From Methylocaldum szegediense (GTDB taxonomy: Bacteria > Pseudomonadota > Gammaproteobacteria > Methylococcales > Methylococcaceae): DNA of 64,000 nt. A program made the position numbers and the translations under genes. This document shows positions 8,856 through 34,988 of this stretch, in pieces. The notes under the pieces are model-generated. The model ran no database searches. It had not been told where the DNA came from and worked only from the letters and a program-made list of their open reading frames with translations. The stretch lies in NCBI RefSeq assembly GCF_949769195.1, contig NZ_OX458333.1, positions 4,188,001 to 4,252,000 on the forward strand. The letters are read 5' to 3'. Within the stretch, counting starts at the first letter, position 1. The number at the start of each line of letters is the position of its first letter.

Positions 8856-10658
8856 ATGAGCGAAAAACACTCCGACCGAAAGCCGCTTACCGACGGAATG
8901 ATCATCTACCGGCGGCTGCTCAAATACGCTTTACCCTACTGGAAGATGTTTCTGGCTTCGATCGTGGCCATGATCGGCTACGCTTCGTTAGGGCCGGCTT
9001 TCGCTAAGCTGATTCAGCCGCTCATCGACGGCAGTTTCATAGAAAATGATCCCGAGATTCTGCGCCAAGCGCCTTTCGTCTTGCTGGGTCTGTCGATCGC
9101 ACGCGGCATTGCCGGGTTTGCCGGAGACTATTGTTCCGGGTGGGTCGGGCGACGGGTGATCGCCGATCTTCGCCGGGATTTGTTCGATCAACTCCTCAAT
9201 CTTCCCTGTACCTATTACGATCACGCGTCCTCGGGGCAGTTACTTGCCAAGCTCCTGTACAACACCGAGCAGGTGGCTAATTCCCTGACCAAAGGCGTGG
9301 TCGCGGTATTCAAGGACGGCTTGACCATCGTCGGACTGACCTTGCTGATGGTTTACGAAAATGTCTTGTTGTCCCTGGTCTTCATGGTGGTCGGCCCGGT
9401 GCTCGGTATCAGCATTCGCGTCGTCAGCAAGCGTTTTCGAAAGATCAGTATGCGTATTCAGGAGTCCATGGGGAATGTCGGCCATGTCGCACAGGAGGTG
9501 ATCGATGCCCAGCGCATTGTCAAGGTGTTCAACGGAAAGAGTTACGAGGGCCAGAAATTCGCGAAGGAAAACGAGCGTAACCAGCGGCGGCAGATGAAGC
9601 TGATCGCCACGGACGCGATGAGTAGCTCGATCATTCAGCTCATCTATGTCAGCGGATTCGCGGCGATTCTGTACGTGGTGTCCCTGGATTCGGTGCGTCA
9701 CACCATCACGCCCGGTAGTCTGATCGCCTTCATCGCAGCGATGGCCATGATGCTGAGTCCAATCAAGCGCGTGACCCAGGTGCTCAATATCATGCAGAAA
9801 GGCATTGCCGCCGGGGACAGCATCTTCGAATTGCTGGACAAGGAACGCGAGCACGACAGCGGAACGCAGGAACTCGAAGCGGTAAAGGGGCAGATCGAAT
9901 ACAAGGGCGTCAGCCTCTCCTATCGAGAGGGAGGAGAGTACGCGCTAAGGAATATCGATCTGACGATAAAGCCTGGCGAAACCATCGCCTTGGTAGGGCA
10001 ATCGGGCAGCGGGAAGACCTCGCTGATACGCTTGTTGCCCAGGCTTTACGAACCGACCCAGGGCGAAATCCGCATCGACGGGCGGGACATCCGGGAGTTT
10101 ACATTGAGCAGCCTGCGCCGGCACATCGCATACGTGGGGCAGGAAGTCACCTTGTTCAATGACAGCATCGCCAACAATATCGCCTATGGCTGTCGGGAAT
10201 CGGTGAGCTTCGAGGACGTTCGGCAGGCAGCCAAGACTGCCCATGCGCTGGAATTCATCGAAGGGTTGCCGCAAGGCTTCGAAACAGTCGTCGGCCAGCA
10301 CGGCGTCGTGCTTTCGGGCGGGCAGCGGCAACGCATCGCGATCGCCCGCGCCGTGCTCAAGAACGCGCCTATCCTAATACTCGACGAAGCGACATCAGCG
10401 CTGGACGCAGAATCGGAGCGTCATGTCCAGGAGGCTTTGGAGGTCTTGATGAAAGGCAGAACTACCCTGGTCATCGCGCATCGCTTGTCCACCATTCAGA
10501 ACGCGGACCGCATCTACGTTATGCGCGACGGCCGCATCATCGAAAGCGGCACTCACGAACAATTGTTGCGTGAGCAGTCCTATTACGCGGAGCTTCACCG
10601 TTTGCAGTTCGAGCACAAGATGCCCAGGCCGATTCCTCAAGTTCACGCGATGTCTTAG
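8856..10658 (+). CDS. msbA: Lipid A export ABC transporter permease/ATPase MsbA
   Basis: A 600-residue half-transporter of the usual MsbA length (about 580-610). The N-terminal 330 residues form six membrane helices, beginning YALPYWKMFLASIVAMIGY. The C-terminal ATPase has Walker A GQSGSGKTS (about residues 380-388), the ABC signature LSGGQRQRIAIARA (about 484-497), Walker B ILILDEATSALD (about 507-518) and the switch His in IAHRLSTI. MsbA dimers flip core lipid A across the inner membrane using ATP. Its position at the end of a glycan assembly cluster and divergent from an O-antigen ligase gene agrees. The start ATG at 8856 has a poor ribosome binding site. Confidence 0.92.
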   Translation: MSEKHSDRKPLTDGMIIYRRLLKYALPYWKMFLASIVAMIGYASLGPAFAKLIQPLIDGSFIENDPEILRQAPFVLLGLSIARGIAGFAGDYCSGWVGRRVIADLRRDLFDQLLNLPCTYYDHASSGQLLAKLLYNTEQVANSLTKGVVAVFKDGLTIVGLTLLMVYENVLLSLVFMVVGPVLGISIRVVSKRFRKISMRIQESMGNVGHVAQEVIDAQRIVKVFNGKSYEGQKFAKENERNQRRQMKLIATDAMSSSIIQLIYVSGFAAILYVVSLDSVRHTITPGSLIAFIAAMAMMLSPIKRVTQVLNIMQKGIAAGDSIFELLDKEREHDSGTQELEAVKGQIEYKGVSLSYREGGEYALRNIDLTIKPGETIALVGQSGSGKTSLIRLLPRLYEPTQGEIRIDGRDIREFTLSSLRRHIAYVGQEVTLFNDSIANNIAYGCRESVSFEDVRQAAKTAHALEFIEGLPQGFETVVGQHGVVLSGGQRQRIAIARAVLKNAPILILDEATSALDAESERHVQEALEVLMKGRTTLVIAHRLSTIQNADRIYVMRDGRIIESGTHEQLLREQSYYAELHRLQFEHKMPRPIPQVHAMS

Positions 10659-10927: not shown

Positions 10928-11332
10928 ATGATGCAATTGTTGGTCGGTCTGACGATTATTTTCGTCGTCTATGTGATCTACGAGGTATTCAAGACGGTAT
11001 CCCGGTCGGAAAGCGCGCCATCCCCCGAAGCAGTGCCGGAACCGAAAGCCGAAGAAGCTGCCGGTGAGCCTGCGGCCGCCAAAGCGGCTGAACCCGTCGC
11101 GAAAGAGGCTGCGCATGCCGAACGAGGTGCACAGTTGCGAAATCCGGTTACCGGCGAAGTTTCCCCTGCGCCGACGAATTATCGCTTCGCGAAGAAGTGG
11201 GTCAAAGAAGCCTTGGTGGCGGAAGGACTGTTGGACCGTGTTTATAAGCCCACTGAGCTGAACGACGCGGTTGCCGCGAAGACCAAAGAGGCTTTAGATA
11301 AGCTCAAGACTCTGGAGAAATACCGGGCTTGA
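10928..11332 (+). CDS. Small single-pass membrane protein of unknown function
   Basis: About 134 residues from ATG at 10928, chosen because a strong site (AAGAGGAGGAGAAGG) lies just upstream; ATG at 10931 is equally possible. The order is one N-terminal transmembrane helix (LLVGLTIIFVVYVIYEVF), a low-complexity Ala/Glu/Pro/Lys linker of about 50 residues, then a folded segment of about 60 residues (NYRFAKKWVKEALVAEG to EKYRA). The topology suggests an anchored protein with its C-terminal domain on one side of the inner membrane. The helix-linker-domain design recalls envelope spacer proteins, but I do not recognise the family. It stands alone between msbA and pilR. Confidence 0.75.
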   Translation: MMQLLVGLTIIFVVYVIYEVFKTVSRSESAPSPEAVPEPKAEEAAGEPAAAKAAEPVAKEAAHAERGAQLRNPVTGEVSPAPTNYRFAKKWVKEALVAEGLLDRVYKPTELNDAVAAKTKEALDKLKTLEKYRA

Positions 11333-12774: not shown

Positions 12775-14390
12775 AATTCGATTGTGGTTTTTTCGGCATC
12801 GGCGAGACGGAGTCGGAAGCAACCGCCGCCGGTCACGGGCTCGTATTCCAGTTTAGCTTGGTTGAGCTCGGCCAATTCGCGCGCGATGTAAAGTCCGAGT
12901 CCGGTGCCGCTGGACGAGGTCGTGAAAAAAGGCTCGAACATTTGCTGAACGGTTTGGCTGTCGATAGGGGCTGCGTGATCGATGACCTCGACGCAGGGTT
13001 CCTGCCGTTGACGTCTTACCCGTACCCGGATCGCACCGCGCTGCGGCTGGCCGTATTTCAGTGCATTCGAGAAAAGGTTTTCGAGAATCTGCTTGAGATG
13101 GCTGGGATCGACCAGCACCAGCGCATGATTGATTCTGACATCGAGCTGGAAGGCATTTTCATGCACAGCCTGCGCCGTCCTATAGTCGCTCAGACATTTC
13201 TTGACGCTGGCTGCCAAAGAAAGGACTTCCCGTTTCGATTGGCTTCGTCTCGAGATTTGAAGCACGTTTTCGATGATGACGTTGACCCGTGCGGTATGGT
13301 CGAGGATGATCTGTGTCAGACGGCGGTCCTGCGTTTCCAGCGAAGAGCTCTCCGCCAGAAGTTGAGCAGCGTGGCTGATCGCTGTCAGGGGGTTACGAAT
13401 CTCATGGGCGATGCTGGCTGTGAGCCGGCCGAGCGAGGCCAGTTTGCTTTGCTGAACCCGCTGATTGTACAAGGCGTTGTCTTCCAGGAATCCCATATAA
13501 AGCGGCGGATGAGTACGACCTAGGCGCGTGAAGCGCACTTGCACAGGTTGTCCGGCGCGGGAGCCGAGATTCACCGTGGCGGGGCTCGGATCGTCCAGCC
13601 ACGCCCAAAACAGTTCCGCTAATTCCGGACAGGCGGTTTCCAACGATCGAGCGGTCGAGGGGATGCCGAGGAGGCGAGCCGCGGATTCGTTCATCATCCG
13701 TATGCGCTGCTGCTCATCGATGACGAGGATGCCCGACTGCAGGTGGTGGATGATGAATTCGTTGAGCTGCCGAAGATTGGCGAGATCGGCGCTACGTTGC
13801 GCGGCGATGGCTTCGCTTTGTTCGGCGCGTCCGGCCAGCACGAGGGCGAGGATCGCGATGCCGAAGAAGGAGGCGCCGAGCATGCCAGCGTAAGTGTAAG
13901 CGGGTTCGAACGCTCCGAACAGGTCGGCGTAGATTTCCTCACCCAATACCGCGACGCTTGCGAGCGCCGCCAGCAGCAAGGCGCAGCGACCACCGGTCAA
14001 GATGCCGCCTGCCGCCACCGACAGGGCCAACAATACGCCTGTGCCGGATTCGGCGCCGCCGGATGCGTACATGACGATAGGGATCGTGACGATGTCCGTG
14101 AGTACGTGCAGCTGTGCCTGAAGCGAAAAAGCCGGACGGCGCAGTAGGAGGGGAATGGCCGAAAGAAAGATGGAGCTGAGATAAAGGCTGCTGACGGCCG
14201 CGTAGAGGCCAGGGTTATGTTTGCCTAGCGACGACGGCAGCGCCCCGAGAAAAAACAAGAAAACGAGGACGCTGCCCAACGTCAGACGATAGAGGAGATA
14301 AACCGTCAGCGCCTGCCAGGCTTGATGTTCAGGGATGCGGTAATGTTTGGAGAACGGACAGGGCGATATCGGCGGGTTGTCGAACTTCAT
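12771..14390 (-). CDS. pilS: Sensor histidine kinase PilS
   Basis: A 539-residue membrane histidine kinase. The N-terminal 190 residues carry about six hydrophobic helices, the PilS-type sensor that detects pilin in the membrane. A PAS-like segment (about 200-310, FIIHHLQSGILVIDEQQRI) follows, then the His box IAHEIRNPLTAISHAAQLL and an HATPase domain with NLFSNALKYGQP and GTGLGLYIARELAEL. It would autophosphorylate and pass the phosphate to PilR Asp54. Gene order pilS then pilR with overlap is the standard arrangement. The signal in this organism is unknown; the name rests on sensor topology plus the PilR partner. Confidence 0.87.
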   Translation of the reverse strand: MKFDNPPISPCPFSKHYRIPEHQAWQALTVYLLYRLTLGSVLVFLFFLGALPSSLGKHNPGLYAAVSSLYLSSIFLSAIPLLLRRPAFSLQAQLHVLTDIVTIPIVMYASGGAESGTGVLLALSVAAGGILTGGRCALLLAALASVAVLGEEIYADLFGAFEPAYTYAGMLGASFFGIAILALVLAGRAEQSEAIAAQRSADLANLRQLNEFIIHHLQSGILVIDEQQRIRMMNESAARLLGIPSTARSLETACPELAELFWAWLDDPSPATVNLGSRAGQPVQVRFTRLGRTHPPLYMGFLEDNALYNQRVQQSKLASLGRLTASIAHEIRNPLTAISHAAQLLAESSSLETQDRRLTQIILDHTARVNVIIENVLQISRRSQSKREVLSLAASVKKCLSDYRTAQAVHENAFQLDVRINHALVLVDPSHLKQILENLFSNALKYGQPQRGAIRVRVRRQRQEPCVEVIDHAAPIDSQTVQQMFEPFFTTSSSGTGLGLYIARELAELNQAKLEYEPVTGGGCFRLRLADAEKTTIEL

Positions 14391-14657
14391 TGTCCGTCAC
14401 GGGCATTCTTGAAATGCGGAGGGACCTCATTCCGGTCAGCTCAGTGGGTGCAGACAAGCCGTGCATGCGAACGCACAAACGATCGACGCGCTCGTATCGG
14501 TCGAAGCGAAGGCTCATTCGAATTCAGAGGCGGTGCGTCCCGTCCTAGCATGGCTTAAGTGCGGTTTCGGAGCGGGTCTATTAGAATAGCCGCAACTATT
14601 AAGCGTAGCATCGATTTGAAGATTGATGTCCGGCGCGAGTGCTAGACGGAGTACCCG

Positions 14658-15818
14658 ATGAACCTACATGAATATCAGGCGAAACAGTTGTTCTCGTCAT
14701 GCGGTTTGCCCGTGCCCCGTGGCACGCCGGCCTTTTCCGAGCGGGAAGCTGCCGAAGCGGCGACGGCCCTGGGCGGCGGACGATGGGTGGTAAAGGCCCA
14801 GGTCCACGCCGGCGGACGAGGCAAGGCGGGTGGCGTCAAGCTGGTTGACAGCGTCGATGCGGTCGCGGCCGCCGCTGGGCAGCTGCTCGGTTCCCGTCTA
14901 GTGACGGCGCAGACGGGCGCCGCTGGGTTGCCGGTCAATGCTGTGCTGGTCGAGGAGGTCCGCCCGATCGCGCAGGAGCTTTACCTGAGCGTGTTGGTGG
15001 ACAGGTCTAGCGCCCGAGTGCTGTTCTTGGCGTCCAGCGCCGGCGGAATGGACATCGAGGAGGTGGCCGCACAGCATCCGGAAAAGATCCTGAGTCTTAG
15101 CGTCGATCCCACGATAGGTCTGCAAGCCTACCAATGCCGGGAAATCGGATTTTCCCTCGGGCTCAAGGGCGAGCAGGTCGGCACCTTGACCAAGATCATG
15201 ACCGGCATGTACCGGCTGTTCATGGACAAGGATCTGAGCCAGATCGAGATCAATCCGCTGGTAGTGACGGAAGACGGCGCCTTGCTGGTGCTGGACGCCA
15301 AGATCAATGTCGACGACAACGCTCTGTTTGCCCATCCCGATTTGGCGGAACTTCGTGATCCATCCCAGGAAGACCCCAAGGAGTCCGTAGCGCGGCAGCA
15401 CGGGCTTAGCTATGTCACGCTGGACGGCAATATCGGCTGTATGGTGAACGGTGCCGGGCTCGCCATGGCGACCATGGACGTCATCAAGTTGTACGGGGGC
15501 GAGCCGGCCAACTTCCTGGACGTGGGCGGCGGAACCACAGCGGAGAAAGTCGCCGAGGCATTCAAACTGATTTTGTCCGACGCCAAGGTGAAAGCCGTTC
15601 TGGTGAACATCTTCGGCGGTATCGTGCGCTGCAATCTGATCGCCGAAGGCATTATCTCGGCGGTGAAAGAAGTACACGTTCAGGTGCCGGTGGTCGTTCG
15701 ACTCGAAGGAACCAACGCCGAGGAAGGCCGGCGCTTGCTCGATCAGTCCGGCTTGGCGCTGATTACCGCGTCGGATTTGGACGAAGCGGCGAAAAAAGCT
15801 GTGGAGGCTGCGCGATGA
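14658..15818 (+). CDS. sucC: Succinyl-CoA synthetase beta subunit SucC
   Basis: A 386-residue ATP-grasp protein, within two residues of the E. coli length. It starts [12 protein letters not shown] and has the nucleotide-binding block [24 protein letters not shown], the conserved [15 protein letters not shown]-like stretch ([16 protein letters not shown]), LDVGGG and [13 protein letters not shown]. With SucD it makes the TCA cycle enzyme that converts succinyl-CoA, ADP and phosphate to succinate, CoA and ATP. The stop overlaps the sucD start. Malate-CoA ligase (mtkA) of serine-cycle methylotrophs is a close paralogue, but the overall similarity to E. coli SucC favours sucC. Confidence 0.92.
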
Positions 15819-16690
15819 GCATACTCGTCGACAAGAATACCAAAGTCATTTGTCAGGGTTTCACTGGCAAACAGGCTACTTTTCACTCTCAGCAGTGCCT
15901 GGAATACGGCACCCAACTGGTCGGCGGCGTGACGCCGGGACGAGGCGGGCAAACCCATCTTAATCTGCCGGTTTTCGACACGGTTAAGCAGGCGGTGCGC
16001 GAAACGGGTGCCACGGCCAGCATGATATACGTGCCGCCGCCGTTCGCGGCGGATGCCATTCTGGAAGCGGCCGATGCGGGGATCAAAGTGATCGTCTGTA
16101 TCACCGAGGGTATTCCCGTTCTGCACATGCTGCGGGTGAAAGCGGCCCTGGCTCATTACGATACCGCCCTCATCGGTCCTAACTGTCCCGGCGTGATCAC
16201 GGCCGGCGAATGCAAGATCGGCATCATGCCTGGCTTCATTCATCAGAAAGGCTCGGTGGGCATCGTTTCCCGCTCCGGTACACTGACTTACGAAGCCGTG
16301 CATCAGACGACCAAGGTCGGGCTTGGTCAGAGTACCTGTGTCGGCATCGGCGGCGATCCCATCAAAGGCCTCGATTTCATCGATGTGCTCGCGATGTTTC
16401 AGAATGATGACGAGACCAAGGGCATCATTCTCGTCGGTGAAATCGGCGGCAGTGCGGAGGAAGAAGCGGCCGAGTACATCAAGGCGCACGTGACGAAGCC
16501 GGTAGTTGGTTACATTGCCGGTCTGACCGCGCCGCCCGGAAAACGCATGGGGCATGCGGGTGCCATCATCACTGGCGGCAAAGGTACGGGGAAGAGCAAG
16601 GTGGCGGCGCTCAAAGCAGCGGGCGTGGAGGTCGTCGATACGCCTACGGCGATGGGACAGCGTATGAGTGCGTTGCTGGGGAGGCCCTGA
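15815..16690 (+). CDS. sucD: Succinyl-CoA synthetase alpha subunit SucD
   Basis: A 291-residue alpha subunit (E. coli 289). The CoA-binding Rossmann domain begins [18 protein letters not shown], and the active-site phosphohistidine is His247 in [19 protein letters not shown] and the [11 protein letters not shown] loop are also intact. It carries the succinyl-CoA ligation half reaction. The ATGA overlap with sucC implies coupled translation and equal amounts. No 2-oxoglutarate dehydrogenase genes lie next to it, as is common in methanotrophs, where this pair often stands apart. Confidence 0.93.
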
Positions 16691-24170: not shown

Positions 24171-24331
24171 TTCCATTTTGTGTCGGCAAAGCGGCCAGCT
24201 CCAGGCCAGATTCACCATTCCGGTCAGCGGAGCCAGTATTGGAATTATGCTCGAAAGTTGTGGATGAGGTAGGCGGCGTATTCGGGATGGTCTTCGAGGT
24301 CATCCATTCCTACAAGAGGAGCGAATACGCC

Positions 24332-25177
24332 ATGAGTGAAGATAAGATCATTGCGCTGAAGAATCCAGGGGTAGCCGCGCCGGTGGCGGATGTCTTGACG
24401 GAGTAGTTACGGCAAGGTGCCCAGCTGCGGCTGGCGACGGCGATCGCGGCTGGGGATTTTCTGGAGGCGCTGATGGCGCTGTTAGGGCGGGAGGCGCCGG
24501 GGCTGTCGGCGAATACGATCAGCCGCTTGAAAGAGGTCTGGAAGGACGAGCATCAGCGTTGGTCGCGGCGGGATTTGTCGAACCGGCGTTATGTGTATCT
24601 CTGGGTAGATGGCATTCATTTCGGGGTGCGGCTGGAGGATGCGGCGCAGTGCATTCTGGTGGTGATAGGGGCTACGGCGGACGGCAAGAAGGAGTTGCTG
24701 GCGTTGGCCGACGGTTATCGGGAGAGCGAACAGTCCTGGCGCGAGGTGCTGTTGGATCTCAAAGCCCGGGGTCTCACCCTTGATCCGCACCTAGCCATCG
24801 GCGACGGCGCCTTAGGCTTTTGGAAAGCCTTACCGCAGGTGTACGGGACCACCCGTGGCCGACGCTGTTGGGTCCATAAAACGGCGAATGTGCTCAATAA
24901 GCTGCCGAAGAGCCAACAGCCCAAAGCCAAAGCGGCGCTGCACGAGATCTGGATGGCCGCCACCCGGCAGGAAGCGCTGTTGCCGTTCTACGATTTTCCG
25001 GCGGAGCATTGGATTCACCTGAGGACCACTAATCCAATTGAATCCACCTTTGCCACGGTGAGGCTCAGAACTGCTAAAAGCGGCTGTGTGTCGCGGGAGA
25101 GCATCCAGGCAATGGTTTTGATGCTGGTGAAAAGGCCGAGCGGCATTGGTAGAAACCGAATTGAATCCCCGATTTAG
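24332..25177 (+). pseudogene. Decayed IS256-family transposase
   Basis: One continuous frame from ATG at 24332 is broken by TAG at 24404 and then runs on from 24407 to 25177. Recognisable parts are VADVLTE before the stop and LRQGAQLRLATAIAAGDF after it. A large internal loss follows, then LSANTISRLKEVW, the first catalytic Asp in LWVDGIHFGV, the second in AIGDGALGFWKAL, and the Glu region TNPIESTFATVRLRT. A second internal loss lies near RQEALLPFYDFPAEH, and the C-terminus is frameshifted. Intact members are about 400 residues or longer. Sequence to about 25290 (GATACACGAAATTGACC) looks like the element's right flank. It cannot encode an active transposase. Confidence 0.85.
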
Positions 25178-25301
25178 CCCAAGTTATTGATGGGGCGTCT
25201 TCAAGGATCGCGTTCAGGAAGATGTCGAAAAAATTTCCACCTGATCAGCTCCGGATACACGAAATTGACCATTACTCCGTGCCAACTAAACCCAGGACAA
25301 T

Positions 25302-26456
25302 ATGAGATCATCATCCGGCGCACACTTCATAGCTCTCGACCACGTTAGGGCCTTGGCTGCCTTCATGGTTTTTACGTGGCATTTCACGCATGCAGCGAAT
25401 GGCTACCCAGTCCCATTCGACTATGTTCCAACGCTATTCCCCTTCTCTATACTCGATGAAGGGCACACTGGCGTAGCTCTATTTATGACTCTCAGTGGTT
25501 ATTTGTTCACAAAACTACTCGACGGCAAGTCGATTGACTATAGGGCGTTCATTTGGAATCGTGCTCTGCGTCTATTCCCTCTGTTAGTGGTTGTAGTTCT
25601 GATCGTCGGCATCAGGCAGTTTGTCAACGGCCAGAGTCTTTCTAGCTATGCCTACTCCATTGCGAAGGGTGCTATATTCCCATCCCTTCCCAACGGTGGG
25701 TGGTCAATTACAGTGGAGTTCCATTATTACATAATTCTCCCTCTGTTTCTCTGGATGCTGGCAAAATCAAAGCTATGGCTGCTTTCTGTTATCGCCGCAG
25801 CCATTTCATTACGTTTGTTTCTCTATCACGAGAAAGGAGAAATCCAGTCATTGGCTTACTGGACAATTATTGGCCGAATAGACCAGTTTGTGCTAGGAAT
25901 GTTCTTCTATCAGTTCCGTTCTTACATTGCCAATCGTCATATTATTGCTCTACTGATAATCGTGGTTTTCACGATTATATATTGGTATTTTGATTTTCAA
26001 GGAGGCTTTTATAAGAACCCTTCATATCCATCTCCTAGTCCTCTTTGGATAATTCTTCCGACAATCGAAGGTTTCGCATACGCTATAGGTATCGCTTGGT
26101 ATGACAATTCGTTCTCCCACTCGAAATCCGGGTTGTCGAAATTTATCGGGCGCATTGGAGAATACTCATACTCCATCTACCTTCTGCACTTTTTTGTAGT
26201 GTTTTACGCAGCTAAGTTTGTGAATGAAAGAGTCATGGATATTTCCAATTTCTATGTGGCATGTCTTTGGTCTGTTGTCTTCTTTGTTCTAATGACAATT
26301 CCAGGGTATTTCAGCTTTCGCTTCATTGAAGCACCTTTCCTTAAGTTGAGGAAAAGTTACGTCAAGACACCCTATGGAGGTCGGGAAACCCAAGGCATAA
26401 ATGCCCCACAACGCGCTTCGGAAGACCCCCGCAAGCGGCGCGCCGCTGAGCTTTGA
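25302..26456 (+). CDS. Acyltransferase 3 family membrane protein (OafA/YrhL type)
   Basis: A 384-residue integral membrane acyltransferase. The signature FIALDHVRALAAFMVFTWHF (about residues 9-28) contains the R-A-L and His motif of the family, and ten or so hydrophobic helices follow, including SGYLFTKLL and the GGWSITVEFHYYIILPLFLW block. It would transfer an acyl, usually acetyl, group to a cell-surface sugar. Base composition and codon use are clearly AT-richer than the neighbouring core genes, with many TTT, ATT and TAT codons, which points to horizontal acquisition. It starts about 10 bases after the IS256 relic and is followed by a good terminator. Confidence 0.88.
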   Translation: MRSSSGAHFIALDHVRALAAFMVFTWHFTHAANGYPVPFDYVPTLFPFSILDEGHTGVALFMTLSGYLFTKLLDGKSIDYRAFIWNRALRLFPLLVVVVLIVGIRQFVNGQSLSSYAYSIAKGAIFPSLPNGGWSITVEFHYYIILPLFLWMLAKSKLWLLSVIAAAISLRLFLYHEKGEIQSLAYWTIIGRIDQFVLGMFFYQFRSYIANRHIIALLIIVVFTIIYWYFDFQGGFYKNPSYPSPSPLWIILPTIEGFAYAIGIAWYDNSFSHSKSGLSKFIGRIGEYSYSIYLLHFFVVFYAAKFVNERVMDISNFYVACLWSVVFFVLMTIPGYFSFRFIEAPFLKLRKSYVKTPYGGRETQGINAPQRASEDPRKRRAAEL

Positions 26457-26464
26457 CGTTATCG

Positions 26465-26492
26465 CGCCGAGCAAAGCTCGGCGTCTCTTGTA
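26465..26492 (+). terminator. Rho-independent terminator after the acyltransferase
   Basis: CGCCGAGC at 26465-26472 pairs with GCTCGGCG at 26476-26483 around an AAA loop, followed by TCTCTTGT. It lies 8 bases after the acyltransferase stop. Confidence 0.7.
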
Positions 26493-26882
26493 GGACGAAA
26501 GGACCGTAGGATGCGGTGACGACCGGAACTACCCTTCGACAGGCAAAGGACTTTCGAGCACCGCTGCACTTGTCGTGATCGCACGCATCGCGTTTTCTCT
26601 TTATCGCCTCAACACCCGTTTCGACCCTTCACGGCTCGCATTCAGCAGATTGACATGAATCATAAAATCTCAGGATAAGCATCAAACGCGATTAATCCGG
26701 TTCGTTTCTCACTTCATCCTACCAAGGTGGCTATTCAGAGTTGGCCGAATCCAATTTATTAAGGGATGCTTCTCTCTATGACTGTTTGGAAGGTTGGCTT
26801 ATAAATCAGGTTTAGCGGCTTCACTTGGCTTCTTTCAGCTGAGCTTCCGTACCTTTGTGTTCAGGATCAAGAAGAAAGAGAC
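26484..26882. other. Intergenic region, no gene supported
   Basis: About 400 bases of mixed composition. No family-like open frame, RNA gene or clear repeat was found. It is probably decayed accessory DNA between the acyltransferase and the next small gene. Confidence 0.45.
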
Positions 26883-27290
26883 ATGCGCATCTCATCGTCC
26901 GATGGCAAGACCTGGATCGAAATTCGGCGGAATGAGGGTGATGATTTTCCGTCATTCGCGTTTAGCGGTGCCGTTAACATCGGGCACGGAAGATTCACGG
27001 ACAGGAGTACGTCGCTTACATTCTTGAACCTGAGCGAGTTCGCCGAGGCATTAGATGCGTTCATCTTGCAGCGAGATCTCCAGCCTTGCCTGGAAGGCAC
27101 TTACGGGAGTTACGCGAGGGTGTGGCAGCCTAGAAGTAAGAATGAAGTGATGCTTGGCTTCTGCATCGGAGATGCGTTTTCTGGTTGGGTAGGCACCTCA
27201 GAGTTCAAGTTGCAAGGCGAGTTCCCTATCGAGCAGGAGATTTTGAACTCGCTGGTGTTCGCCTTTCGGTCAATGGTAAGAGATGCCTAA
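26883..27290 (+). CDS. Protein of unknown function, possibly immunity-like
   Basis: A 135-residue protein with a plausible ribosome binding site (AAGAAGAAAGAGAC) before ATG at 26883. It reads as an alternating strand and helix domain: IEIRRN, FPSFAFSGAVNIGHGRF, LNLSEFAEALDAFI, then strands ending in EFPIEQEILNSLVFAFRSMV. This layout weakly recalls WapI-type immunity proteins of contact toxin systems, but no toxin gene is nearby and I cannot confirm the family. It sits between the acyltransferase and the IS21 insertion, 22 bases from the element's left end, in the accessory island. Confidence 0.65.
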   Translation: MRISSSDGKTWIEIRRNEGDDFPSFAFSGAVNIGHGRFTDRSTSLTFLNLSEFAEALDAFILQRDLQPCLEGTYGSYARVWQPRSKNEVMLGFCIGDAFSGWVGTSEFKLQGEFPIEQEILNSLVFAFRSMVRDA

Positions 27291-27388
27291 CAATGTGGTG
27301 GAGCATAATGGCTGTCAACGCCGACTGAAAAGTGACCCCTTTTGAGGGTTTATCGCCGAAGTAAAATTGACCCCTTGAGGCCCAAAAG

Positions 27389-29190
<1,802 letters not shown>

Positions 29191-29336
29191 TTCCGCGGCT
29201 CAAAAAAGCCGCCATTTTCCCCCAAGGGGTCAAATTTACTTCGGTGTCAGGGGTCATTTTTACATCGGCGGTGACAAATGGCGCTGATGTGCCGCGGTTC
29301 ATCCTCGGCGTCGGGCGTCATAAAGGGGAGCCATAG

Positions 29337-29933
29337 GTGGGTAACGCGATATCTTGGTTGGCAGTGAGGGGAAAATCGCCCGAAGCCGTGATTCAGGAAC
29401 TTGAGCTTACACCTACGGGAGAAACGGCACAATACGGTGAGTTCCTTTTTACCGGGCGCGCTCTGTCCAATGGATGGTTTGTCCTAGTCATCAATCACTG
29501 TGAACATGATTTTGTAAAACAGAAATCTCTCGCTTCACTCTCGAAGAATTGTGAAGTTATCGCCTGTTCAATTGAAGAACACGTCATGTTCTGCTCTTCA
29601 GAGCTGTGGACGAATGGGGAACAAATTTGGCGCATTGAGCACGATGCGCAAAAGAGCATTGATCACATCAATAGCTTTGGGGCACTGCCAGAAGGATATT
29701 TGGCAATTGAACGTGAATTTTCAGAGGAGCAAAAGAAAGCTGGCGGCAGAGAGGCTGAAGTCGACTATTTTTTTGAGATCCCTCTGCAAACAGCCAAGTC
29801 CATTGTTGGTTTCAAGCACGACGAACCGAGTTCTGAAGACGACGATTTTGAGGTTTTCGATGGCACAATCGGTTCATCATTTGCAAGTCAAAAATCAGCT
29901 CAAAGCAAAAGGCCATGGTGGAAGCTTTGGTAA
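29337..29933 (+). CDS. Conserved protein of unknown function
   Basis: A 198-residue protein starting with GTG at 29337; GGGGAG lies 9 bases upstream. It reads MGNAISWLAVRGKSPEAV, then FTGRALSNGWFVLVIN, CEVIACSIEEHVMFCSSELW, and an acidic C-terminal region (EPSSEDDDFEVFDG) with a basic tail ending PWWKLW. I recall a widespread family of uncharacterised bacterial proteins with the same AISWLA start and EEHVMF core, but no function is known to me. Codon use is AT-richer than in the core genes. Before the IS21 insertion it would have lain about 75 bases after the 26883-27290 gene. Confidence 0.72.
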   Translation: MGNAISWLAVRGKSPEAVIQELELTPTGETAQYGEFLFTGRALSNGWFVLVINHCEHDFVKQKSLASLSKNCEVIACSIEEHVMFCSSELWTNGEQIWRIEHDAQKSIDHINSFGALPEGYLAIEREFSEEQKKAGGREAEVDYFFEIPLQTAKSIVGFKHDEPSSEDDDFEVFDGTIGSSFASQKSAQSKRPWWKLW

Positions 29934-30046
29934 TATCGCTCAAGAACGCTATCAACGCGGGCGGTGAAAATCAGTGCTCCTCGTCGCCCAGCTTTTTCGT
30001 TGCCGGTAATCGCGAACGTTAGAGCTCAACTTAGTATGACGTCATC

Positions 30047-30364
30047 ATGCGCTTCAAATGGTCTGATTCGGAGAAAAAAGTCGCAAGGCGAGCTTTTGAT
30101 AAAGCGCTCGAGAAGGAATACGCCGCAATCATAGCCAAGTTTAAAGATATGGCTGCGAAGGCGGAAAAGCCCGAAGACCTTTGGGCGGTTCATAACTATC
30201 TCACGAAGCAGCAAAGAGCGCTTGATGAAAAATACGATTACCGCTATTCGGAACTCATCCTTGTATTTGCCAGGTTACTGAGCGAGAAGTGGATCGATGA
30301 AAAAGACCTCAATGGTCTGAATCCAGAGAAGCTTCAGGCTATTCGGAATCTCTTGTCCTGGTAA
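30047..30364 (+). CDS. Fluorescence recovery protein (FRP) family homologue
   Basis: A 105-residue all-helical protein that matches the FRP family along its length. It has WSDSEKKVARRAFDKALEKEY at the N-terminus, DLWAVHNYL in the middle, the hallmark DEKYDYRYSELILVFARLL (about 60-78), and ends with DLNGLNPEKL. In cyanobacteria FRP dimers bind the orange carotenoid protein and speed its return to the inactive state. Trp46 and His49 align with conserved residues of Synechocystis FRP, but Asn50 and Gln56 stand where Asp54 and Arg60 occur there, if I recall that protein correctly. No orange carotenoid protein or phycobilisome gene is in the window, so the role here is unknown. It belongs to the accessory island. 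Confidence 0.82.
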   Translation: MRFKWSDSEKKVARRAFDKALEKEYAAIIAKFKDMAAKAEKPEDLWAVHNYLTKQQRALDEKYDYRYSELILVFARLLSEKWIDEKDLNGLNPEKLQAIRNLLSW

Positions 30365-30663
30365 GCGGTTATGAGTACAGCCAGTCTTGGCTGCCAGCGT
30401 TAACTGTCCAGTCTCAACCAGACAGCCAGCAACAACGTAAGCGTCCGACCAGGTAGTCCGGGCGTCTCCTTAACATCGACTATGACCGCCGGATAACTTG
30501 GTGCATACCACTAAATTTCTTGATTTCGAATGCAAAGCCACCTCAAATCGGTGGCTTACGCAGAGCCTGTCTTGAGCGGAGATAAGGCGCTACCCCACTA
30601 TCGATGGGTTTCGCTTTGCTCTACCCATCCTACAATGAATTTCCATTTGAATTCCGAACGGAA
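30365..30663. repeat. Intergenic region ending in a dispersed-repeat-like palindrome
   Basis: No gene is supported here. At 30603-30632 lies a sequence beginning GATGGGTTTCGCTTTGCTC and ending TACCCATCCTAC, whose outer parts GATGGGT and ACCCATC pair. I recall this as a motif common in intergenic DNA of several proteobacteria; its function is unknown. A short hairpin, CAGCCA-GTCT-TGGCTG, lies just after the FRP-like gene near 30379-30394. Confidence 0.45.
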
Positions 30664-31263
30664 TTACAACTGCTTCTCGTCCTGAATCCACGGAGCGACT
30701 GGTTCAGACTTGTAGGCGGCCAGGGATTCCAAAAGCGCTTCCAGGTCGGTGTGGGCCAGCAGTAGCCTTCGGCTCTCGGGTTTCAGGAAACCTTCCGCGA
30801 GAGCTCGATCGCATAAGCTCAGGAGAGGTTCGTAATAGCTTTCCACATCGAGAATCCCTATCGGTTTGCGGTGAAATCCAAGCTGAGCCCAGGTTAGGAT
30901 TTCGAAGAGCTCCTCGAAGGTGCCGAACCCTCCGGGCATCGCGATGAAGGCGTCGGCGAGTTCCGCCATACGGGCTTTGCGGGCGTGCATCGAATCGACC
31001 ACTTCGAGTCGGGTAAGAGAGGTGTGTTCTACCGTTTGACCTTCTACCTCACGGCCGATCAAAGCTTTCGGGATGACGCCGATAACCCGCCCTCCGGCCG
31101 CAAGGCAGGCATTCGATAGAATGCCCATGAGACCCACGTTTCCACCGCCATAAATGAGTTCCAAACCTCGTTCGGCCAGCAGCCGGCCCAAGGTTTCGGC
31201 AGCAATTCCGTACTCGGGGCGTTTGCCGGGGCTGGAACCGCAGAAAACGCAAACGCTCTTCAC
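30664..31263 (-). CDS. LOG family protein (nucleoside 5'-monophosphate phosphoribohydrolase)
   Basis: A 199-residue protein of the TIGR00730/LOG family. It begins VCVFCGSSPGKRPEY, has YGGGNVGLMG near residue 40, HARKARMAELADAFIAMPGG and the catalytic signature PGGFGTFEEL (about 111-120). Members release free bases from cytokinin riboside or AMP-like 5'-monophosphates and are also called lysine decarboxylase-like, a misnomer. Start is GTG at 31263 with GGAGAGGTGATCAG before it. It follows the 5-oxoprolinase gene by 29 bases on the same strand and is probably co-transcribed. The closing palindrome AATTCCGTTCGGAATT overlaps its stop. Confidence 0.88.
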   Translation of the reverse strand: MKSVCVFCGSSPGKRPEYGIAAETLGRLLAERGLELIYGGGNVGLMGILSNACLAAGGRVIGVIPKALIGREVEGQTVEHTSLTRLEVVDSMHARKARMAELADAFIAMPGGFGTFEELFEILTWAQLGFHRKPIGILDVESYYEPLLSLCDRALAEGFLKPESRRLLLAHTDLEALLESLAAYKSEPVAPWIQDEKQL

Positions 31264-31292: not shown

Positions 31293-34200
31293 TCAATTGG
31301 CGGTTTTCCGAGAGCCCGAGTCCGTGGGACCCGGCTCCATCGAACTTCCGTATCCGCCGCCCCCGGGCGTCTCGATGACGAACACATCGCCCTCGGCCAT
31401 GTCGGTTTCGGCCTGAGATCCGAGAATTTCCACGGCTCCGTTGCGTCGGATCACGAGGTTTCTCCCGCAGGCTCCGGGATTTCCGCCAGCGAGGCCGAAT
31501 GGCGGCTGTAGGCGACGGCTGGACACGATTCCGGCGGTCATGGGCTCAAGAAACCGGATTTTTCGGATGACGCCGTCGCCGCCTTTGTACAAGCCCTCGC
31601 CGCCGCTACCCCGGCGGATGGCGAAGGTTTCTAGCCGTACCGGAAAGCGCCATTCCAGTACTTCGGGGTCGGTGATACAGGAATTGGTCATGTGCGTGTG
31701 CACGGCGTCTGCACCGTCGAAACCGGCTCCAGCGCCGGCTCCGCCGCAGATGGTTTCGTAGTATTGATAGCGCGTGTTGCCGAAGGTGAAATTGTTCATC
31801 GTGCCTTGGGAGGCGGCCAGCACGCCCAGCGCGCCGTACACGGCATCCACGATGTGCTGCGAGGTTTCCACGTTTCCCGCTGCGACCGCCGCAGGATAGC
31901 GCGGGTTCAGCAGGGAGCCTTCGGGAATCCGGATGTCGAGCGGACGCAGACAGCCGGCATTCAGCGGAATATCGTCGTCCACTAGGGTACGGAATACGTA
32001 AAGGACGGCGGCTTTGCACACAGCGGCCGGGGCGTTTAGATTGTCGGGCTGTTGCGGCGAGGTTCCGGAAAAATCGATCGAGGCTTGCCGCTTTTCCTTA
32101 TCGACGCGAATCGCCACGCGGATGACCGCACCGGAATCCAGCGGCACTTCGAACTCGCCGTCGCAGAGCCGCGCGATCACCCGCCGCACCGCTTCTTCCG
32201 CATTGTCTTGTACATACCTCATGTAACACTGGACCGTCGCCAGAGAATAGCGTGCCAGCATGCCGCGGAGCGCCTGCACGCCTTTCACGTTGGCGGCGAT
32301 CTGGGCGCGGAGATCCGAGAGGTTTCGGTCAGGATCGCGGGCCGGGTAGGGGTTCGCGTTCAGCCAGTCGCGGATGGCCGATTCGAGCAAGCGTCCGTTT
32401 TCGACGATCTTGAGACCGGAGCTCAGAACCCCTTCCTGATCGATAGATGTGGATCGGGGCGGCATCGAGCCGGGCGTGATGCCGCCCACGTCGGCGTGAT
32501 GGCCGCGCGAGGCGAGATAGAACAGGACCGATTCGCCCGCATCGTCGAATAGCGGGGTGATGACGGTGATGTCCGGCAGATGCGTACCGCCGTGATAGGG
32601 GGAATTGATGAGCCAGACGTCGCCTGGCCGCAGTTTGTCCCCGTGACGCGCGATCAGCGCTTTGACGCTTTCGTCCATGGAACCCAGGTGAACCGGAATG
32701 TGCGGGGCGTTGGCGACGAGTTCGCCGTTCCCGTCGAACAGCGCGCAGGAAAAATCGAGACGTTCCTTGATGTTCACCGAGTGGGCCGTGTTTTGGAGCG
32801 TATAGCCCATGTCCTCGGCCACCGACATGAACAGCCGGTTGAAGATTTCGAGACGCGCCGGATCGAGCGGCTGCTCCTTTGCCTCGGTTTCCGGCGGGCT
32901 ATCCGCACGGTCGATCGCTTCGTGAGCGCTGAGAATGAGATGGTTGCGGGCGGTAATCTCGCCCTGCCAACCGGGTTCAATGATTGTGGTTGAATTGGGT
33001 TCGATCAGGATGGCAGGGCCTTGCAAGCGCACGCCCGGTTTCAAGTCCTCGCGCCGGTAAACCGGGGTATCGTGATGGCTTCGCCCGGAGTACATTGGAA
33101 CTCGGGCGATGGGGACCGGTGTGGTTTCGGGTTCCAAAGGTAAAACCGGCTCTTCGACCGGTTCGTTCAGGCCGATCAGCTCCACAGCTGCCGTCTCGAC
33201 CAGCAGGGCCTTGTCGGAGTAAACGAAGCCGAAGCGCTGGCGGTGGCGCTCCTCGAATACCGTCCGCATTTCCACCGAATCGCCGAGCGGTACGGCAAAC
33301 AAGGTGTCGGTTCCTTCGTAACGGAGCATCGCCTGGCGGGTTGCGACGATCCGTTCCGGTGGAACATCTTGGGCCGAGAGTTCCGCGCGCCCTTCGGCTT
33401 CGAGGTCATCAAGCTTCGCACGAAGCACTAGGATAGCGGCATCGTTCAGCCGCTCGGCGATCGCCCGTTCCTTGACGACGCGGTAATCGGCAAGACCCAT
33501 GCCGTAGGCCGACAATACGCCGGCCAGTGGATGCAGAAAAATTTTGCCGATGCCGAGCCGTTCGGCGACCTTGCAAGCATGTTGGCCGCCGGCGGCGCCG
33601 AAGCAGCACAGGACGTAATCGGCCAGATCGTGGCCGCGCTGCACCGAAATCGTCTTGATGGCGGCGGCCATGTTCTCCACCGCCACGTCGATGAAGCCTT
33701 CCGCCACTTCTTCGGACGACAGCGCTCGGCCTGAGTCTGATCGGATGGTCTCGGCCAGTTCCCGGAATTTGCGCCGAACGATCTCGGTATCGAGAGCCTC
33801 ATTGCCGTTCGGTCCGAACACGTGCGGAAAGAACTCCGGGCGTATTTTTCCAACCATGACGTTGGCGTCGGTCACGCATAAAGGTCCGCCGCGCCGGTAG
33901 CAGGCGGGTCCCGGATTGGCTCCGGCCGAGTCGGGCCCAACTCTAAAGCGTAGGCCGTCGAAATGCAGGATCGAACCTCCTCCCGCCGCGACCGTGTGAA
34001 TATTCAGAATAGGGGCTCTTAGCCGGACGCCGGCAATCTCGGATTCCTGGCTGCGCTCGAATTCGCCGGCGTAATGCGCGACGTCGGTGGATGTGCCGCC
34101 CATATCGAAGGTGACGATGCGGTCGAAGCCGGCGAGACGGGAGACAGCCACCGCGCCGACGATGCCTCCGGCGGGACCCGAGAGAATGCAGTCCTTGCCC

Positions 34201-34988
34201 TGGAACCGGCGGGCGTCCGCCAATCCACCGTTGGACTGCATGAACAGCAGCTTGCGTTTTTGGCCTTCCGGCATCTTGCCATTCGGCTCGGTGCCCAAGC
34301 CAGCCTCGACCTGATCGATATAACGGCGCAATGCCGGGGACAGATAAGCATCCGCGACCGTGATATCGCCTCGCCCGATCAACTTCATGGCGGGGCTCAC
34401 GCGGTGGGAAAGGGAGACTTGCGTGAAGCCGATCGCCTTGGCCAGCTTTTCCAGTTCGAGTTCGTGATCCGGCTTTCGCCAAGCGTGCATGAGCACGACA
34501 GCGAGCGACCGAAAACCGTCCCGGTAGGCCTCGTGGAGCCGTCGTTCCGCCTCAGTAAGATCGAGCGGTTCCACCTCAGAGCCGTGGGCGTCGATGCGCC
34601 CTGTGATTTCGACGACCTTTTGGTAAAGCGGTTCGGGGCGGCGGATATTCAGGGCGAAGATATCGGGTCGGTTCTGATGGCCGATGCGGAGGGCGTCAGC
34701 GAAACCTCGCGTGATCGCAAGGACTGTCGGTTCACCTTTCCGTTCCAGGAGCGCGTTTGTTCCCACCGTGGTGCCCATCCGGACGAGTTCGATGTTGGCG
34801 TCGCCGAGTGGCGCATCGGGCGCCAGACCCAACACATCGCGGATGCCCTGGAGGGCGGCATCGCGGTAGCGGTCCGGATTTTCCGATAGAAGCTTGTGGG
34901 TCAGGAGGAGGCCGTCCGACCGACGGGCGACGATGTCGGTGAAGGTGCCGCCGCGATCGATCCAAAATTGCCAGGATTTCGAATGCAT
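31293..34988 (-). CDS. 5-oxoprolinase, HyuA-HyuB fusion type
   Basis: A 1231-residue enzyme that fuses both hydantoinase-type subunits. The N-terminal HyuA half (about 1-690) begins [15 protein letters not shown] and has [15 protein letters not shown] and [13 protein letters not shown], the ATP-binding actin-like fold. The HyuB half (about 720-1215) begins [20 protein letters not shown] and has [24 protein letters not shown] and [10 protein letters not shown]. The C-terminus ends [11 protein letters not shown]. Eukaryotic-type OPLAH opens 5-oxo-L-proline to glutamate with ATP, salvaging a product of glutathione turnover. Length equals that of known fused enzymes. Hydantoin substrates cannot be excluded. 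Confidence 0.9.

Follow-up and report, generated by a model that had tools for sequence, protein, structure and literature searches.

The 64,000 nucleotides of Methylocaldum szegediense DNA analysed here (the window) contain a gene of the FRP family, whose cyanobacterial members regulate the orange carotenoid protein (OCP). The locus raises the question of what such a protein does in a genome in which OCP is not detectable, and of how its gene came to lie where it does. An FRP-family protein without a detectable OCP must serve something else, which is also the conclusion published for the FRP-like (FRPL) proteins in the text of Steube et al. 2023 cited here (PMC10172135). Taken as a whole, the explanation which we consider probable is that of an FRPL with a partner other than OCP, encoded in this genus by an integron gene cassette, of which the window holds a stranded copy.

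Family, fold and the search for OCP

The gene from which the analysis starts is:

30047..30364, + strand, FRP-like (FRPL) gene, 105 aa (PF18032, PDB 8ag8, AlphaFold/Foldseek)

It is an intact open reading frame with an ATG start, and its product includes DEKYDYRYSELILVFARLL. Membership of the FRP family, as claimed in the original prediction, is secure. The Pfam profile PF18032 aligns over positions 1-97 of 99 with residues 5-101 of the protein (E 1.1e-23), a full-length match scoring 83.9 bits against a curated cut-off of 26.6. The best PDB sequence match is 8ag8, a 'Fluorescence Recovery-like protein' (E 3.4e-25), followed by the FRP of Fremyella (5tz0, 3.2e-23) and Slr1964 of Synechocystis (4jdx/4jdq, about 9e-14). 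The fold agrees: an AlphaFold2 prediction, made for the monomer only and built on 29 FRPL sequences, has a mean pLDDT of 95.2, and in Foldseek it resembles seven FRP and FRPL chains at a TMq of 0.81-0.93 (all E <= 0.001), namely 8ag8 (0.93), 5tz0 (0.88-0.92) and four chains of 4jdx/4jdq (0.81-0.84). Two more 4jdq chains (E and F) compare poorly (0.35-0.36, E about 0.1). As the protein has no PADLOC or PHROG family match, a defence or phage gene was discarded as its identity.

That the gene is an orphan was borne out in the full genome, which consists of two contigs with 4.9 Mb and was covered by all OCP searches. The OCP N-terminal domain (PF09150) gave 0 matches there and 0 in the control genomes of that search, and the annotated OCP of a plasmid of the cyanobacterium Aulosira, a record added as positive control, was found with E 1.8e-68. 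The OCP C-terminal domain is NTF2-like, and the NTF2 profile (PF02136) gave 0 matches in the genome and was positive in 1 of 14 control genomes. A full-length OCP protein query, with no positive control of its own, gave 0 matches at E <= 1 in the genome; by tblastn the same query matched 5 cyanobacterial plasmid records. Because no OCP is detectable in its genome, the window FRPL does not regulate OCP. It comes from a non-cyanobacterial host without OCP, HCP or CTDH, like the FRPL group of Steube et al., and lacks the OCP in the same genome that marks an OCP-regulating FRP.

FRPL without OCP is an already published class, with this genus included, according to the text of Steube et al. cited here (PMC10172135). 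The name FRPL was given there to proteins mainly of proteobacteria and acidobacteria, whose genomes are stated to contain no OCP, HCP or CTDH, and 8AG8 is the structure solved for the FRPL of Pseudomonas borbori. The FRPLs of P. borbori, Methylocaldum sp. and Chlorobi sp. are reported to have virtually no effect on OCP1 recovery, and that of Desulfobacteraceae to speed it up (PMC10172135). Of these the P. borbori protein is close to ours in sequence and fold (the best PDB match at 3.4e-25, TMq 0.93), in its proteobacterial host and in a genome reported to lack OCP, and differs in that its gene is reported on a single chromosome (PMC10172135). The purified Methylocaldum sp. protein, from a strain left unnamed in that text, shares its genus name with Methylocaldum sp. 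14B (order Methylococcales), which is the congener G374 of our set (FRPL contig NZ_MSCV01000012.1, 151,313 bases). The window protein, of the same genus, is 82-83% identical to the proteins of its two FRPL-bearing congeners, sp. 14B and G373; in the fourth genome of the genus, G375, FRPL was not found.

A changed partner had also been read from two residues of the window protein. The mapping is correct by the alignment to 4jdx/4jdq, anchored on the R60K structure 4jdq: W50, H53, D54 and R60 of Synechocystis correspond to W46, H49, N50 and Q56, with Trp and His kept. The argument from Asp54 and Arg60 is weak on comparison of the aligned proteins, the congeners keeping one residue (Asp50/Gln56 in G373) or both (Asp50/Arg56 in sp. 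14B). Of the 29 aligned FRPLs, 18 have Asp at position 50 and 22 have Arg at position 56, so that non-cyanobacterial hosts frequently retain these residues. The claim that the FRP fold serves another partner stands on the absence of a detectable OCP, and Asn50/Gln56 is to be dropped as a sign of it. The alignment comprises 29 of 35 distinct sequences (five Mesorhizobium rows and the truncated L062 were omitted); W46 is invariant in all 29, and 14 columns are invariant, window copy included. The corresponding W50 of Synechocystis is described as a dimer-interface residue in the cited part of PMC6155142. The residues F76, K102 and L106, tied to OCP1 contact in the cited part of PMC10172135, correspond to L72, A98 and L102 of the window protein, so that one of three is kept and the set expected jointly of an OCP-regulating FRP is incomplete. 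In summary, likeness to cyanobacterial FRP (Slr1964, 4JDX/4JDQ; Fremyella, 5TZ0) lies in the fold (TMq 0.81-0.92 over six chains, two 4jdq chains being poor) and in the dimer-interface Trp, and difference in the missing OCP target, in N50/Q56 for D54/R60 and in L72/A98 for F76/K102.

Methylocaldum makes carotenoids, and with a fold so close to FRP the protein might be imagined to regulate a diverged OCP-like carotenoid protein escaping recognition in this genome. We hold this to be extremely improbable, given the empty PF09150, PF02136 and OCP searches (the last at E <= 1), the loss of two of the three OCP1-contact residues and the virtual lack of effect on OCP1 reported for a Methylocaldum FRPL (PMC10172135). 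What we propose is that FRPL would act as a small helical homodimer, the dimer being taken from the family, which would bind a host protein other than OCP; on this adaptor mechanism our judgement is evenly balanced. A role in stress or starvation may perhaps be added by analogy with the P. borbori FRPL, for which higher signal and polar foci on starvation are reported, with a caution of the authors regarding copy number (PMC10172135).

FRPL as a probable cassette in two congeners

The window and the 20-kb stretches around FRPL in the two congeners that carry the gene share long DNA only at FRPL itself, with 30-105 bases before and 41-69 bases after it; three shorter matches (35-62 bases) are all with G373. 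As the flanks resembled attC sites an integron integrase was searched for, and one scoring above the TIGR02249 cut-off is present in all four genomes of the genus. In sp. 14B intI (C12:85330-86520; L045, L050) lies 4.7 kb from FRPL (C12:80373-80660) and has one internal stop, given which the long array of this strain may be frozen. The intI of the window genome is intact (C1:1255099-1256043, L054) and is accompanied by an attC array that does not include FRPL, the distance between intI and FRPL being 2.96 Mb along the contig or 1.9 Mb the other way if it is circular. That of G373 is also intact (C1:2737958), and there FRPL lies in an attC cluster without an integrase, with no intI match near it.

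The attC sites were searched with a covariance model (R1). Its 28 training sites all come from the genus and include no site that flanks FRPL; being trained on one genus it may miss other attC types. In sp. 14B (locus L012; L056 and L057 are the same contig and were not recounted) FRPL at 10001-10318 lies between attC sites at 9889-9975 (38.9 bits, E 5.4e-7) and 10354-10443 (44.0 bits, E 3.4e-8). R1 finds 19 sites in the locus at E <= 0.1, every one on the strand of FRPL; 11 of them had served for training and 8 had not. This copy is flanked by an attC at either end and belongs to an array close to an intI, the one with the internal stop. In G373 (locus L007) FRPL at 14231-14548 on the minus strand has attC matches on either side at 14571-14675 (E 0.051) and, weakly, at 14116-14195 (E 6.9); R1 matches the 20 kb 10 times at E <= 10, always on the strand of FRPL; 6 of these matches have E < 0.001, and 3 of the 6 are training sites. 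A group II intron reverse transcriptase (RVT_1 and GIIM) is found on the opposite strand inside the sp. 14B array (L012 7160-8494).

The borders of the shared DNA fall on these sites. The FRPL block common to sp. 14B and G373 starts about 7 bases after the upstream attC core and ends at the GTT of the downstream core, and the block common to the window and G373 starts at the CGTTAG of the upstream core (window 30017). A second cassette of 475 bases with 96% identity, reaching from CGTTAG to CGTTAGG, is shared by sp. 14B (L012 15154-15628) and G373 (L007 4169-4643, reverse strand), and is found downstream of FRPL in the former and upstream in the latter. Cassette exchange produces this kind of pattern, in which homology breaks off at attC cores and the order of the blocks differs. 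The exception is the match between window and sp. 14B, which continues upstream through the attC instead of stopping at the core, perhaps due to the mutual resemblance of the attC sites of these arrays. We are highly confident of a cassette origin of FRPL in this genus: the cassette would consist of the small gene and its attC and would be moved by the integron integrase, and the window copy would once have been mobile.

Chromosomal attC sites of Methylococcales are known and also occur in Acidobacteria, Deltaproteobacteria and Cyanobacteria, according to the cited part of PMC8352920, and integrons are described in the Methylococcus strains Mc7 and IM1, with cassette genes that are mostly unpredicted in the cited part of PMC8527097. 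The FRPL cassettes resemble the chromosomal cassettes of the order as small attC-bounded genes in one orientation beside intI; the window copy differs in lying outside the intI array of its own genome with a decayed attC. Integron, cassette and attC are unmentioned in the main text of Steube et al. (PMC10172135), and in the open-licence literature searched no link of FRP or FRPL with integrons was found in print. The integron cassette state of FRPL in this genus therefore appears to be the new part.

The probably stranded copy of the window

The features around the window FRPL are:

24184..30558, no strand, interval of variable content (its flanks are conserved in three congeners, which have other DNA between them)
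24473..25177, + strand, piece of a Mutator-family transposase, left side of the island (PF00872 E 5.6e-35, profile 131-287 of 379)
25302..26456, + strand, acyltransferase gene (Acyl_transf_3), possible cassette gene (PF01757 E 2.4e-30)
26403..26464, + strand (that of FRPL), attC-like site that overlaps the 3' end of the acyltransferase gene (R1 23.3 bits, E 0.0019 in the whole window)
26883..27290, + strand, 135-aa open reading frame, possible cassette gene (no Pfam, NCBIfam, PADLOC or PHROGs family)
27318..29265, - strand, IS21-type element, outer limits approximate (istB 27389-28171, istA 28168-29190)
29337..29933, + strand, 198-aa open reading frame directly upstream of FRPL (no Pfam, PADLOC or PHROG family)
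29938..30024, + strand, degenerate attC, its end 22 bases upstream of the start codon of FRPL (homology to the sp. 14B attC at L012 9889-9975)
30365..30433, + strand, remnant of the attC of the FRPL cassette itself, the rest missing (homology to attC-bearing tails ends at 30405 for G373 or 30433 for sp. 14B)

The left flank ends at 24183, just after a guanylate kinase gene (PF00625), and conservation returns on the right at 30559, ahead of a lysine-decarboxylase-like gene (PF03641). Between these flanks the congeners have 4.0 kb (G373), 14.6 kb (G374) and 0.86 kb (G375, with the right match from 31347) of DNA. With contents varying between conserved flanks the interval is therefore an insertion hotspot; in the congeners it is without FRPL, which in G373 and G374 is found elsewhere. 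The right edge of the island (30536-30670) is a dispersed repeat matching dozens of places in G373 and G374, and the window contains no tRNA and no Rfam family at gathering score.

The gene had been placed in a mobile island, and part of this holds: the IS21-type istAB genes (27389-29190; IstB_IS21 E 6.3e-89, rve E 5.5e-13, inverted repeats 27356-27380 and 29220-29244 with 92% identity), the Mutator-family piece and the low G+C (0.459 in FRPL vs 0.572 in the window) agree with it. A better description is that of a decayed run of integron cassettes with an IS21-type element within it. A strict R''/R' motif scan found 0 attC sites between 20 and 40 kb of the window and a single one in the whole window (15911-15989, minus strand), and because it found none near FRPL the position-weight and covariance models were used. 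The site at 26403-26464 has the top position-weight score of the window (32-site set), and positions 26456-26490 are 97% identical to a stretch of G373 overlapping the end of an attC match there. With an attC-like site 4 bases past its stop codon, the 198-aa open reading frame is probably the gene of the preceding cassette.

That attC-like site at 29938-30024 lies inside a longer match to sp. 14B, of 83% identity over 498 columns, and recombination would have taken place after G30018. Taken alone, as a sequence, the site is weak: R1 gives 7.1 bits (E 2.7 with filters off) and leaves it unlisted at E <= 10 in the default search of the whole window, and its first position-weight score of 17.6 is reached 0.7 times per shuffled window. 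Its credibility as a putative attC comes mainly from the homology to sp. 14B and from the boundary with G373. Downstream of FRPL R1 finds no attC at E <= 10, so that recognisable attC sites on both sides are lacking and the window copy is at most a cassette remnant. We consider it very probable that it is a decayed cassette remnant stranded in an insertion hotspot, where it would have lost most of its own attC and would lie in one run with the IS21-type element.

Such a setting, a decayed remnant with a truncated attC, would also suit a passenger without function in this genome. The dN/dS values of the window pairs differ by method (0.26-0.27 by NG86, 0.43-0.46 by ML and 0.64-0.68 by YN00) and are not low by two of the three; constraint on FRPL is nevertheless likely from these comparisons. 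A decaying passenger is unlikely, in view of the intact reading frame, the confidently predicted fold (pLDDT 95.2) and the 14 columns invariant in 29 FRPLs, in which the window copy shares.

FRPL beyond the genus

FRPL is rare outside Methylocaldum. It is present in 3 of 38 genomes of the family, all of this genus, of whose four genomes they are three, in 8 of 311 genomes of the order, in 1 of 369 genomes drawn from the class (the window's own) and in 4 of 398 drawn from the phylum, again with the window's own included. One match, in G934 (L062), covers only positions 29-97 of 99 of the profile and appears to be a 5'-truncated gene. Named genomes were also searched with two short peptide patterns, not exhaustively, as P. 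borbori was missed; 27 of 78 candidate stretches were confirmed, of which 12 are labelled Mesorhizobium and 3 Bradyrhizobium, and the other confirmed ones include one acidobacterial MAG. Carriage by plasmids, phages or viruses was discarded, nothing having been found by tblastn in 72,556 plasmid and 50,697 phage records, collections which may omit the window genome and near records, nor in a scan of viral contigs (0 of 7 candidate stretches confirmed). An apparent fusion in a 612-aa frame of Tistlia was also rejected, since by eye it looks like the upstream gene read out of frame, after which FRPL begins at a start codon of its own.

In a tree without the truncated G934 sequence and without cyanobacterial FRPs the Methylocaldum FRPLs group together (96/94), beside three FRPLs that belong to other Methylococcales genera (90/81) and far from that of Rhodanobacter. 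Of 33 sources scanned with R1 only the G373 locus, a Rhodanobacter MAG (L024) and a Burkholderiales MAG (L022) matched at E <= 0.01, and only the first two have attC matches around FRPL, the site of L022 being more than 2.1 kb from it; matches at E 2-9 in L021, L026, L028 and L032 were taken as chance. In L024 FRPL (10001-10318) lies between an attC at 10957-11013 (E 4.2e-7) and a second site at 9182-9238, seen in the position-weight scan only (29.5 vs 19.7 for the best shuffled score); this MAG has an intact integrase, on another contig. A distant FRPL between two attC-like sites in another order hints at an FRPL cassette there as well. The cassette state is well documented in Methylocaldum and hinted at in a single further genus.

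The grouping with three FRPLs of other genera, and the lack of any R1 attC match at E <= 10 in the five Methylococcales loci from other genera, could be understood if FRPL were an ordinary gene of the Methylococcales caught later in integron sites in a single genus, the cassette then being uninformative on its history elsewhere. We regard this as quite possible, though somewhat less than evenly probable. Presence in only 8 of 311 genomes of the order implies frequent loss or transfer, the fourth FRPL of the order (G1002) stands apart on a long branch, and three of four Methylocaldum genomes carry FRPL in different settings, with the hotspot of the window free of it in the congeners. That cassettes spread FRPLs beyond the genus and that the founding transfer from a deltaproteobacterium to a cyanobacterium, at the origin of the OCP-FRP system, was itself a cassette capture is very unlikely.

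A well-studied allosteric regulator arose from the FRPLs, and cassette movement, which we prefer for this genus, is a concrete route for their patchy spread within it. Movement as an integron cassette would also explain why the neighbourhood of the gene in this genus is uninformative on the partner. Spread as a single-gene cassette suggests a function that is useful alone, with the partner already present in and supplied by the recipient, which would narrow the search to widely conserved host proteins.

Clustering of neighbouring open reading frames by blastp (31 locus entries, one of them a duplicate not counted) showed, among the 45 listed clusters common to at least two host groups, no neighbour recurring over the whole set of loci. 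A relative of the window's hydantoinase gene (31293-34988) occurs in L035 less than 10 kb from FRPL, on the other side of it and with a different spacing, which was taken as chance. The zinc alcohol dehydrogenases (Pfam) adjoining FRPL in L064 and L066, from another family of the order, lie on opposite sides and are 25% identical, and were set aside as weak. Neighbour families do recur in smaller groups: downstream of FRPL in genome G527 (L011) and two Mesorhizobium loci (L033, L038), and upstream in G527 and Tistlia, with another in eight Mesorhizobium loci and one Bradyrhizobium locus.
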